Origin: Aquanectria penicillioides
Taxonomy: Eukaryota > Ascomycota > Sordariomycetes > Hypocreales > Nectriaceae
DNA length: 64,000 nucleotides
Direction of reading: 5' to 3'
Assembly (NCBI GenBank): GCA_003415625.1
Contig: PYIU01000003.1
Coordinates: 4,588,001 to 4,652,000 of the forward strand
Of this stretch, positions 52,280-62,880 are shown piece by piece (position 1 is the first letter of the stretch; each line of letters starts with the position of its first letter). The position numbers and the translations under genes were made by a program. The notes under the pieces were generated by a model that saw only the letters and a program-made list of their open reading frames with translations, did not search any database and had not been told where the DNA came from.

Positions 52280-55200
52280 ATGGCTGAGCTCCAGTGGCCC
52301 GCTGCGCGCGTGCGCAAGACCTTTTTTGACTTCTTTGAGCAGAGGAGTCACACCATAGGTATGAAGCTCTCAACTTCACCAGTGCGGGCACACCACCCCA
52401 CCACCTCGTACGGCCTCACAGATGTCATCGAGCTCTTCTACAGCGTCTCTTTTCCCTATCTCCATTTTTTTCATCCCAATTTTATGCTGACGTCTCATCT
52501 TTCCAGTCCCCTCCGGCTCAGTCGTCCCTCACAATGACCCCACCTTGCTCTTCACCAACGCGGGCATGAACCAGTTCAAGCCCATCTTCCTTGGCACCAT
52601 TGGCAAGACCGATCCCATGGCCAGCCTCAAGGCCGCTGCCGACTCCCAGAAGTGTATCCGAGCTGGTGGCAAGCACAACGATCTCGACGATGTCGGCAAG
52701 GATAGCTATCACCACACCTTCTTCGAGATGTTGGGCAACTGGTCCTTTGGCGACTACTTCAAGAAGGAGGCCATCGAAATGGCCTGGGAGCTCCTCACCA
52801 AGGTCTACGGCCTTGACCCCGAACGCCTTTACGTCACATACTTCGAGGGCAACGCCGATCTGAACCTCGAGCCCGATTTGGAGGCCAAGGAGCTCTGGAA
52901 GTCTGTTGGTGTTTCCGAGGACCACATCCTGCCTGGCAACATGAAGGACAACTTCTGGGAGATGGGTGACCAGGGTCCCTGCGGTCCTTGCAGTGAGGTT
53001 CACTACGACAAGATTGGTGGTCGTAACGCGTCTAGCCTTGTAAACATGGATGACCCCATGGTTGTCGAGATCTGGAACATCGTTTTCATGCAATACGATC
53101 GCCAAAAGGACAAGAGCCTCAAGAGCTTGCCTGCCAAGCACATTGATACCGGTATGGGTTTTGAACGATTGGTCTCTGCCCTCCAGGACACCGTCTCCAA
53201 CTACGCTACCGACTGCTTCACTCCCCTATTCCAGCAGATTGAGCACGTCACTGGTGCCCGCCCCTATACCGATAAGTACGGCAAGGACGATGTCGATGGA
53301 CTTGACACTGCTTACCGAGTCGTCGCCGATCACATCCGAACTCTTTCCTTCTCCATCGCCGACGGTGCCGTCCCTAACAACGACGGCCGCGGTTACGTTA
53401 TCCGACGAGTCTTGCGACGTGGTGTCCGATATGCCAGGAAATACTTCAACGCCGATATTGGTTCATTCTTCTCCAAGATCCTCCCCCCTCTGGTTGACCA
53501 GCTGGGTGGTCAATTCCCTGAGCTTGTTAAGAAGCAGCAGGAAATCAAGGAGATCCTTGACGAGGAGGAGGTTGCCTTCGCTCGCACCCTAGATCGTGGT
53601 GAGGCCCAGTTCGAGAAGTATGCTGCTGAGACTCTGAAGAACAACTCGAAGAAGCTGGAAGGTGATGTTGTGTGGCGATTGTACGATACCTTTGGATTCC
53701 CTGTCGACCTCACCCGATTGATGGCCGAGGAGCGAAACTTGGAGATTAACGACGAGGAGGTCGAGGCCGCCAGGATCAAGGCCCGTGAGGCCAGCAAGGC
53801 CGTCAAGGAGTCAGTCCAGACCTTCTCTAAGCTGAACGTCCACCAGATTGCCGAACTGGAGCAGCAGCTCCAGGTCGCCCGAACCAATGACGACGCCAAG
53901 TTCGTCAAGGGTGACAGCAAGGGCAAAGTGCAGCTGGTCTACGACGGCAAGGGCTTCCACAAGTCTACCACGGATTTCCCGAGAAGACCGCCATCGGAGT
54001 TCTGTTGGACAGCACCAACTTCTACGCTGAGTCTGGTGGCCAAGTTGCAGACAGCGGCCGACTCATCATCGACGGTTCTGCCTCGTTCCAGGTTCTGGAT
54101 GTCCAGAACTTTGGTGGCTACATCCTTCACAGCGGTTACATCGTTGAAGGCTCATTGTCCACCGGTGATGAGGTCATCTGCGAGTACGATGAGCTCCGCC
54201 GAGCGCCTATTCGCAACAACCACACCGGAACTCACATTCTCAATCACTCATTGCGAGAGGTTCTTGGTGACGAGATTCACCAGAAGGGTTCCCTCGTGGA
54301 TGACGACAAGCTCCGATTCGACTTCTCTCACAAGACTGGCGTGAAACTCGACGAGCTCAAGAAGATCGAGGACCTTTCCAACCAGTACATCCGAGACAAC
54401 TCCAAGATCTATGCCAAGGAGGTCGACCTGGATCTCGCCCGCCAGATTGAGGGTTGCCGTGCCGTCTTCGGCGAGACCTACCCTAACCCTGTCCGCGTTG
54501 TCTCTATTGGCAAGGATATCGACACTATGCTCGCCGAGCCCAAGAATATTGAGTGGCGCAAGTACAGCGTTGAGTTCTGTGGCGGTACCCACGTTGAGCA
54601 GACTGGCTTGATCAAAGACCTCATCATTGTTGAGGAGAGCGGTATCGCCAAGGGCATCCGCCGTATCATCGCTTATACAGGCGAGGCGGCACACCGCGTT
54701 CAGCAGGAGGCCGAGGAGTTCTCCAAGAAGCTTGATGCTCTCGAGAAGCTTTCGTTCGGCCCCGAGAAGGAAGCCCAGCTCAAGGCAGTGTCTCAGGACC
54801 TTAGCCAGCTTGTCATCTCCACCTTGACCAAGGAGGATTTCAACAAGCGTTTCCAGAAAATCTCCTCTTCAGTTGTTGCGGAGCAGAAGAAGCGACAGAA
54901 GGCTGAGGCCAAGACTGCCCTTGACGCTGTCCTCAAGCACTTTGAGCAGAACAAGGAGTCCAAGTGGTTTGTCGGTCGCCTTCCCGTTAGCGCCAACCCC
55001 AAGGCTCTGACCGAGGTGGTGAAGCACTTCCAGAGCAAGGACAAGGAGAAGACTGTCTACCTGTTTGGCGGCAGCAAGGAGGAGGGTGCCGTCGTCCACG
55101 GTGTCTTTGTCGGAACTGTAAGTCCTCAATCATCTTCATACATACACGAACTCTATACTGACTTATTCTCCATAGCACCTCTCTTCTCAGGGCGTCACCG

Positions 55201-61889: not shown

Positions 61890-62034
61890 GACACTTTGGC
61901 CGAGTGGTTAAGGCGATGCCCTGCGTACGTTCCCTCAAACAACTCCACTTCTTCCGCACCAACTAACATTCCACAGTATCATGCATATCAAGGCATTGTG
62001 TTCGCACGCGTAGGTTCGAATCCTGCAGGTGTCG
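61890..62034 (+). tRNA. tRNA-Ser(GCT), copy 1, with GT-AG intron splitting the anticodon plus a 37/38 intron
   Basis: The acceptor stem closes exactly (GACACTT with AGGTGTC, discriminator G). The A box (TGGCCGAGTGG) and B box (GGTTCGAATCC) are perfect. A long variable arm (GTG-TTCG-CAC) marks a type II tRNA, and with G73 this indicates serine. The anticodon stem is ATGCC/GGCAT. The loop starts C32 T33 G34 C35 and is then cut by 61925-61976 (52 nt), beginning GTACGT, containing ACTAAC and ending CACAG. Next come T36 A37, a second insert at 61979-61990 (12 nt) in the normal tRNA intron position, and A38. Removing both gives the loop CTGCTAA, anticodon GCT. A T5 run downstream (about 62041-62045) is the Pol III terminator. 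What is seen is the gene structure; splicing by the spliceosome is inferred. Confidence 0.9.
61925..61976 (+). other. spliceosomal-type intron inside tRNA-Ser copy 1
   Basis: 52 nt: donor GTACGT, branch-like CTAAC 15 nt before the end, acceptor CACAG. It lies between anticodon positions 35 and 36 and contains no TTTT run. Confidence 0.75.
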
Positions 62035-62417
62035 CTCTCCTTTTTGCTGGAGCTTTATTTTTTAGCACATATTCTTTTGCGCTCTTCGCGTACAAGATGA
62101 ATTCCACAGCAAATGGTTCTAAGTAGGTCATAATATGCAGGACAGCCACGGCAGGCAGATCTTAGTAGTTAACTAAAGGTGCCCGTACCTACTACCCACC
62201 TTCGTGTCAATTCATAGCGGGACGTCTGTAATAAGGTGTGCCTGCCAGGATATGTGGTACCAACGGCAAACGGGAGGGGCGCGGGCTTCCTGAATGAAGG
62301 TTGTCGGTCCCCCTCATACCATGGCGGAAAACACAGCGACTAGGATGATTAACTACTATTGATGATAACGATAAGTGGCAAAAAAATATATTGTCCGAAG
62401 AAGGGGCAAAAAGATGA
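62035..62417. other. spacer between tRNA copies 1 and 2
   Basis: Holds the Pol III terminator of copy 1 at its left end and, at its right end, that of copy 2 (TTTTT on the minus strand near 62408-62412). No ORF of note. Confidence 0.5.
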
Positions 62418-62569
62418 CGACACCTGCAGGATTCGAACCTACGCGTGCGAACACAATGCCTGGAGCGCTATGGATAATACTGAATGGGGTGTTAGTTGGA
62501 GTTGATGACACGTTGACTACGTAGATGAACTTACGCAGGGCATCGCCTTAACCACTCGGCCAAAGTGTC
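62418..62569 (-). tRNA. tRNA-Ser(GCT), copy 2, with GT-AG intron splitting the anticodon plus a 37/38 intron
   Basis: All mature-tRNA positions are identical to copy 1. The GT-AG insert is 62480-62534 (55 nt: GTAAGT donor, CTAAC branch, TTCAG acceptor), again between G34-C35 and T36. The second insert at 62462-62477 (16 nt) contains TAGC, the exact complement of the restored anticodon plus A37 (GCTA). This is the anticodon-intron pairing expected of a tRNA endonuclease substrate. Downstream on the minus strand lies a TTTTTGCC terminator. Removing both inserts gives anticodon GCT. Opposite orientation to copy 1. Confidence 0.9.
62480..62534 (-). other. spliceosomal-type intron inside tRNA-Ser copy 2
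   Basis: 55 nt with a GTAAGT donor, AACTAAC branch and TTCAG acceptor. There is no TTTT run. The sequence differs from copies 1 and 3 except at the splice signals. Confidence 0.75.
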
Positions 62570-62730
62570 TTCTTCGGTGGCAAACTTGACTGTTAGCCAT
62601 GTATATATTGCTGCAGCCATATTCCTTCGCCAAATAATTGCTTCATGGGCCAAACCTGACCCATCAAATACCGCAAAGATCTTGCGAAGTGGTAGTAGGT
62701 AAAAATATAAGAGGCAAAAAGATACTGTAA
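62570..62730. other. spacer between tRNA copies 2 and 3
   Basis: 161 bp. It contains the 5' flank of copy 2, with an ATATATACA element on the minus strand, and the TTTTTGCC terminator of copy 3. No gene. Confidence 0.5.
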
Positions 62731-62880
62731 CGACACCTGCAGGATTCGAACCTACGCGTGCGAACACAATGCCTATCGGCTATTTATAATACTAGGGGTT
62801 GTTAGCGGAAAACTCCTGAGACATTGAATCATCATGGGAACTCACGCAGGGCATCGCCTTAACCACTCGGCCAAAGTGTC
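62731..62880 (-). tRNA. tRNA-Ser(GCT), copy 3, with GT-AG intron splitting the anticodon plus a 37/38 intron
   Basis: The mature parts are identical to copies 1 and 2. The GT-AG insert is 62792-62845 (54 nt: GTGAGT donor, GCTAAC branch, CCTAG acceptor). The 37/38 insert is 62775-62789 (15 nt) and again contains TAGC, complementary to GCTA. The 5' flank CGTCACCAATA is shared with copy 1, pointing to a recent duplication. The insert has a TTTT run, a weak potential Pol III stop, while the gene's own terminator is TTTTT. Removing both inserts gives anticodon GCT. Confidence 0.9.
62792..62845 (-). other. spliceosomal-type intron inside tRNA-Ser copy 3
   Basis: 54 nt with a GTGAGT donor, CGCTAAC branch and CCTAG acceptor. 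It contains one TTTT run. Confidence 0.75.

Follow-up and report, generated by a model that had tools for sequence, protein, structure and literature searches.

Three transfer RNA (tRNA) genes for serine with the anticodon GCT, located in a 64,000-nucleotide (nt) stretch of the Aquanectria penicillioides genome (hereafter the window, G000:C7:4588001-4652000 of an assembly of 53.76 Mb in 13 contigs), are split within the anticodon by inserts that carry the signals of messenger RNA (mRNA) introns. A survey of the genome revealed GT-AG inserts of the same type in four other tRNA families and in one U6 gene. These inserts are very probably U2-type spliceosomal introns residing in tRNA genes transcribed by RNA polymerase III (Pol III).

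tRNA-Ser(GCT) genes split at the anticodon

The three genes of the window, S1 (61890..62034, forward strand, 145 nt), S2 (62418..62569, reverse strand, 152 nt) and S3 (62731..62880, reverse strand, 150 nt), match the Rfam tRNA family RF00005 with 42.8, 42.2 and 42.4 bits, respectively (gathering cut-off 29), and are the sole matches recovered from the whole window at the Rfam gathering thresholds. Parsing of the three genes, with tRNA numbering set by hand from the cloverleaf, revealed a common layout consisting of a 35-nt 5' exon, a GT-AG insert between positions 35 and 36, the dinucleotide TA, a second insert at 37/38, and A38 followed by the rest of the gene (44-nt 3' exon). The GT-AG insert is 52 nt long in S1 (61925..61976, forward; GTACGT...ACTAAC...CAG), 55 nt in S2 (62480..62534, reverse; GTAAGT...ACTAAC...CAG) and 54 nt in S3 (62792..62845, reverse; GTGAGT...GCTAAC...TAG), with the penultimate base of CTAAC placed 10-12 nt from the insert end. 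The second insert occupies the canonical position of tRNA endonuclease introns and spans 12 nt in S1 (61979..61990, forward), 16 nt in S2 (62462..62477, reverse) and 15 nt in S3 (62775..62789, reverse). A Pol III terminator-like run, TTTTT, follows each gene on its own strand, at +7 in S1 (62041..62045), +6 in S2 (62408..62412) and +11 in S3 (62716..62720).

A fourth split copy was found about 12 kb past the window end (G000:C7:4663695-4663841). Both exons are identical in all four copies, each of which has an A box and a B box, starting 116-123 nt apart, and a downstream T run beginning at +6 to +11. Besides these promoter boxes, the genes show the long variable arm, G73 and the anticodon loop CTGCTAA of a tRNA-Ser(GCT), the loop arising only once both inserts are out. 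Folding of the four sequences minus the GT-AG insert (RNAfold) predicted the acceptor, T and anticodon stems in 4/4 cases, and in each the anticodon arm was lengthened by the 37/38 insert. ARAGORN called none of the three window genes under default settings and named them Asp, Glu and Arg when introns were allowed. A genome search for an unsplit copy of the same sequence recovered none, its eight matches all being halves of the four split genes.

These results agree with most of the initial annotation of the window, which had placed three tRNA-Ser genes within 61890..62880, given their inserts as 52, 55 and 54 nt at 35/36 with splice signals and CTAAC, and described all mature positions as identical; the Rfam matches fall at exactly those places, and both the inserts and the identical 35-nt and 44-nt exons were recovered by parsing. 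It had also stated that only removal of the GT-AG insert gives GCT, the serine anticodon. For the mature loop, the second insert, at 37/38, which had been overlooked, must go too. Having two inserts, each Ser gene thus seems to need both splicing systems. A count of Ser(GCT) genes in the genome yielded the four split copies but also three genes of different sequence (L051, L054, L056) without a GT-AG insert, whose single intron, at 37/38, measures 29, 55 and 27 nt, respectively. The split genes are therefore ruled out as the sole source of this tRNA, and the codons AGC and AGU would be readable without them, which counters the strongest form of the earlier argument. Since such genes exist, the Ser family would not by itself make the spliceosome obligatory; the initiator Met family, described below, would. 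One conventional tRNA-Ser(GCT) gene, with a 55-nt intron at 37/38 (G000:C7:4663389-4663524, reverse strand; within L034/L054/L072), is a neighbor of the fourth split copy, at a distance of about 170 bp.

If the GT-AG step were skipped, cutting of the unspliced RNA at 37/38 would yield a serine-type tRNA with the anticodon GCG, the form in which ARAGORN reads S3; alternatively, the transcripts could act as decoys. Such a tRNA would bring serine to the arginine codons CGC and CGU, and it requires a pyrimidine at position 37, where pyrimidines are very rare in tRNAs. In addition, for 3/4 Ser copies the unspliced RNA has a best fold that does not resemble a tRNA, and the T-stem, D-stem and initiator inserts described below would be left unexplained. 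Skipping of the GT-AG step is thus hardly conceivable as an explanation of these genes.

Interrupted genes in other tRNA families and U6

In total, 23 GT-AG inserts were identified in five tRNA families: Ser(GCT), 4; Arg(TCG), 3; Arg(ACG), 1; Cys(GCA), 3; and initiator Met, 12. They occupy six sites, namely 35/36, 52/53, 26/27, 46/47, 19/20 and 24/25. Because the survey covered the genome in part, this total is a lower bound: of the first-look candidates, 63 of 2343 were scored in the Rfam search for tRNAs and 47 of 2978 in that for U6; the B-box pattern occurred at 199 places, about 100 of which were listed and part of those read; the patterns linking A box to B box covered A boxes beginning with TGGC and TAGC, and introns inside either box would escape them. 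From these patterns, 51 rows were sorted by eye into tRNA genes or other sequences.

The Arg(TCG) family comprises six genes, three of which (L063, L101, L102) have a T-stem insert at 52/53, of 53, 60 and 56 nt, with the form GTTAGT...CTAAC and ending in AAG, AAG and TAG, respectively. The other three (L068, L096, L103) represent the empty site. Inserts at 37/38 are present in all six, and with the introns removed all six give one identical 73-nt sequence. ARAGORN either missed the interrupted Arg(TCG) genes or gave them a wrong isotype. In the Arg(ACG) gene L141 a 55-nt insert lies in the D loop (19/20), and the spliced form equals the uninterrupted genes L027 and L030 over 71 nt. Three Cys(GCA) genes, with identical exons, have a D-stem insert at 24/25 of 54, 55 and 56 nt, whose removal restores the D stem GCTC/GAGC; the Cys paralog L021, which has no such insert, deviates from them at a few positions of the exons.

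Four matches to U6 were obtained among the candidates scored with Rfam, two of them over the cut-off (L134 and L135). The first of these (C7:1730381-1730484) is uninterrupted, while the second (G000:C1:3831993 region) contains a 54-nt intron, GTAAGT...CTAAC...CAG, located directly before ACAGAGA. Exact empty sites are thus available in paralogs for Arg(TCG) (three genes with and three without the insert), Arg(ACG) and U6; the Ser and Cys paralogs lacking a GT-AG insert have a different exon sequence.

Initiator tRNA-Met genes

A gapped pattern that allowed for long distances between A box and B box led to the Arg(ACG) gene and to initiator Met genes. Six initiator Met genes were found in all (L138-L140, L143-L145), each of which has two GT-AG inserts, one of 52-55 nt after G26 and one of 53-60 nt after G46. 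With the inserts removed, the six genes give a single identical 72-nt mature sequence, and the predicted exon-exon junctions are GCGCG-CCGGG and CCCGGAGG-TCGCACG. T runs occur within about 30 nt downstream of all six. The sequence GGGCTCATAACCC, which we take to be the core common to fungal initiator tRNAs, occurs six times in the genome, always in one of these genes. The initiator anticodon arm was located at 12 places, six exact and six near-matches; all six near-matches were read, none is a tRNA, and no further initiator Met gene was found among them.

The second intron of the initiator genes holds an element resembling a B box in all six copies (1-3 mismatches to GGTTCRANYCC). Examples of such sequences in this intron and in the U6 intron are AGTTCAACTCC, CCTTCGACTCC and AGTTCGAATTC, the last of which lies in the U6 intron of L135. 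For the initiator intron 2, single shuffle tests of the likeness ranged from 0.000 to 0.328, and the count is biased, because L138-L140 were found through that very motif. No support for such likeness was obtained in the Ser introns. Retention of the initiator intron 2 and of U6 introns as carriers of a B-box-like Pol III promoter element may be entertained on this sequence likeness, as a lead and not as a result.

Splice signals and sequence constancy

All 23 tRNA inserts begin with GT and end with AG, conform to GTNNGY at the 5' end (GTNNGT in 18/23) and are 52-60 nt long, with a median of 54. A branch site CTRAC lies near the 3' end in 20 of the 23 (CTAAC in 19), and 21 end in YAG. Taken jointly, GTNNGY, CTRAC and AG are found in 20/23 inserts; when the 23 inserts were shuffled, 1 of 115,000 sequences had all three, and on the two strands of the window 19 of 1,150,992 segments with a length of 52-60 nt did, the three Ser introns included. 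These comparisons rule out a chance origin of the splice signals. A looser intron pattern gave 18 matches over the window, the three Ser introns among them, versus about 15 expected, and was uninformative. The inserts share their build and length with the one protein-verified mRNA intron measured in the window (n=1), a 58-nt intron of the alanyl-tRNA synthetase gene (55118..55175, forward strand; GTAAGT...ACTGAC...TAG), across which a tblastn alignment with the Mariannaea protein P0121 stops at 55117 and restarts at 55176. Group I and group II self-splicing introns were also ruled out, since 52-60 nt is too short for either and no Rfam match to them was obtained in the window or, at an E value of 0.01, in eight other loci, where only tRNA and U6 matched.

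Introns removed by the tRNA splicing endonuclease are known at several ectopic tRNA positions in red algae and archaea. Disrupted tRNA genes processed through a bulge-helix-bulge (BHB) motif occur in C. merolae, according to an excerpt of PMC3978253, and the Ser genes do hold an ordinary-looking insert at 37/38; both points favor reading the GT-AG inserts as endonuclease introns, of canonical or ectopic BHB type, in which GT-AG and CTAAC would be due to chance or inheritance. However, the complete 4-bp central helix of the motif could form in 0/20 inserts tested, those of Ser, both Arg families and initiator Met (3 of the 4 pairs in 11 of them), and in none of the 20 were the outer and inner helices found as well. 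The same splice signals recur across five families, and a cut at 37/38 prior to removal of the GT-AG insert would leave the Ser genes with anticodon GCG and T37. An endonuclease explanation of the inserts is thus very unlikely, a BHB origin being opposed by the six insertion positions away from 37/38 and by the helix test of the 20 inserts. The recurrence of the signals in four tRNA families besides Ser, at five other positions, in turn supports the spliceosomal-type reading that had first been proposed for the three window genes.

Within every family of interrupted genes the exons are identical, with 4/4 Ser, 6/6 Arg(TCG), 3/3 interrupted Cys and 6/6 initiator Met genes in agreement, and the flanks of the Ser genes have diverged. 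The mean aligned identity of the intron interiors is 0.64 for Ser, 0.60 for Arg(TCG) and 0.58 for initiator intron 1, the values for shuffled pairs being 0.58-0.59 (standard deviation 0.09). Constant exons combined with interiors that are, in most cases measured, no more alike than chance are what purifying selection on exons and splice signals predicts. The interrupted copies might nevertheless be dead pseudogenes, or tRNA-derived repeats, that have accumulated inserts; Ser, both Arg families and Cys all include paralogs that lack the GT-AG insert, and tRNA-like repeats do occur in the genome. Dead copies, however, would have drifted in their exons as the Ser flanks and most of the measured interiors have, and for initiator Met no gene other than the interrupted ones was found. 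We consider decayed copies an extremely unlikely explanation.

Several observations weigh against the interpretation of the inserts as spliceosomal introns. The evidence consists of DNA sequence from a single genome. Copies within a family are paralogs, and the independent units are at least six sites, or seven with U6. Three inserts have no CTRAC and show in its place ACTTAC (initiator intron 2 of L138), GTTAAC (initiator intron 2 of L140) and ACTCAC (Cys, L175), and the interiors of initiator intron 2 are more alike than chance (0.71 versus 0.58). Genes without a GT-AG insert exist in the Ser, Cys and both Arg families. No Rfam tRNA match was obtained at an E value of 0.01 for the initiator genes L139 and L140 or for the Arg(ACG) gene L141, so that they were identified from their exons, by eye, and from the spliced products. 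Reading by eye, against L134, also defined the 5' exon of the interrupted U6 gene L135, whose Rfam alignment runs into the intron. As to folding, the mature initiator cloverleaf is 0.2 kcal/mol less stable than the best structure given by RNAfold, and the best structures of Ser intermediates and mature Ser alike are without a D stem. Four scans for relatives in the viral_contigs collection gave no match; one of the four was a control with an uninterrupted initiator tRNA of fungal type, and the scans therefore say nothing about other fungi.

Predicted processing of the interrupted transcripts

The order in which the two types of insert would be removed is constrained by the Ser genes. The tRNA splicing endonuclease measures its cleavage sites from the folded tRNA body. 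The spliceosome would have to act first, because otherwise the endonuclease would cut inside the Ser GT-AG intron. In the proposed pathway, Pol III would transcribe the precursor, consistent with the A and B boxes and T runs of 4/4 Ser copies and the terminators of 6/6 initiator genes, and the spliceosome would take out the GT-AG intron or introns of 52-60 nt in the nucleus. The RNA would next fold as a normal pre-tRNA, and the endonuclease would last remove the 37/38 intron in the Ser and Arg(TCG) genes. The layout of the genes, their splice signals, the constant exons and the empty sites of paralogs are seen in the DNA itself; transcription, splicing, the order of these steps and the dependence on the spliceosome are what we infer.

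Since all six initiator Met genes found carry two introns, the start of translation would require the spliceosome. It is likely that this fungus cannot process its tRNAs without the spliceosome, which would directly couple initiation to splicing capacity, and that five tRNA families acquired introns, at six or more sites, as did U6; some molecules would be matured by the spliceosome and then by the endonuclease, and the initiator intron 2 and U6 introns may persist for their B-box-like element.

Relation to known systems

The initial annotation had held that Pol III transcripts enter the spliceosome. Our results support this reading, but the phenomenon as such is not new, introns in fungal U6 genes being established according to excerpts of PMC5832005 and PMC10484740. 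Mutants in pre-mRNA splicing are impaired in splicing of the U6 precursor as well, according to a reference title in PMC5832005, and for the U6 intron of S. pombe an origin by reverse splicing close to the catalytic bases is assumed (PMC10484740, excerpt). The fungal U6 genes, of S. pombe and others, resemble the genes described here in that a small structured Pol III RNA is split by a GT-AG spliceosomal intron; they differ in that U6, unlike the tRNAs, is itself part of the spliceosome. PMC5832005, in the excerpt, names U3 and U6 as the sole small structured RNAs for which frequent interruption by an intron is known. The fungal U3 small nucleolar RNA likewise has canonical GT-AG introns, and a single genome can hold both interrupted and uninterrupted paralogs (same excerpt), but in U3 the introns are confined to one gene family and mainly to one region of insertion.

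The canonical tRNA endonuclease introns are represented by the second Ser insert, of 12-16 nt, and by the Arg(TCG) inserts at 37/38, whereas the GT-AG inserts sit elsewhere, carry splice signals, and show the full central BHB helix in none of the 20 tested. A further structural RNA host is the ribosomal DNA (rDNA), which is transcribed by RNA polymerase I. Spliceosomal introns of ascomycete rDNA, known here through a reference title in PMC2586383, share with the present ones a structural RNA as host, the host being rDNA and not tRNA.

No title or opening of an abstract that reports spliceosomal introns in tRNA genes was found in the open-access literature searched, the subscription literature lying mostly outside the search; in the initial annotation, a tRNA gene with an mRNA-type intron inside the anticodon had been given as not known to be described. 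In an excerpt of a 2026 review (PMC13149111), tRNA splicing is described as not involving the spliceosome. Spliceosomal introns in a Pol III host are known as such; the tRNA as a host gene class appears to be new, and with it the consequence. If the introns are used, there is at least one fungal lineage in which that description does not apply and in which initiator tRNA could not be made without the spliceosome. Split tRNA genes of this kind are missed or misnamed by gene finders. Paralogous Pol III genes with and without introns would also constitute a natural set in which intron gain by reverse splicing is testable away from capping and polyadenylation.

Other observations

Proteins of the window are closest to those of Nectriaceae, the alanyl-tRNA synthetase matching Mariannaea at 90% and a cysteine synthase matching Thelonectria olida (Nectriaceae, Hypocreales) at 88%. 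At 53975-53987 (forward strand) the frame of the alanyl-tRNA synthetase shifts without an intron and two tblastn pieces overlap in different frames, possibly as a result of a small assembly error.

Some tRNA-like sequences of the genome stand apart from the five interrupted families. The locus L142 (G000:C7:4865466-4865615, forward strand) matches tRNA with 53.5 bits and has a long anticodon-arm insert (84 letters outside the alignment), with no evident GT-AG signals and no clear U33. L168 (G000:C6:6200270-6200510) is tRNA-like, with acceptor-like ends, GGTTCGATTCC and an odd middle, and receives no call from ARAGORN. Two repeated tRNA-like sequences, with an A-box-like and a B-box motif, occur at several places each (L117/L155/L156 and L114/L159/L171/L172), examples being GAGTGGTTACYGCCT...GGGTTCGAATCC and GAGTGGGCATGCCACCC...GGGTTCGAATCC; judged by their sequence, both types of repeat look like tRNA-derived short interspersed elements.

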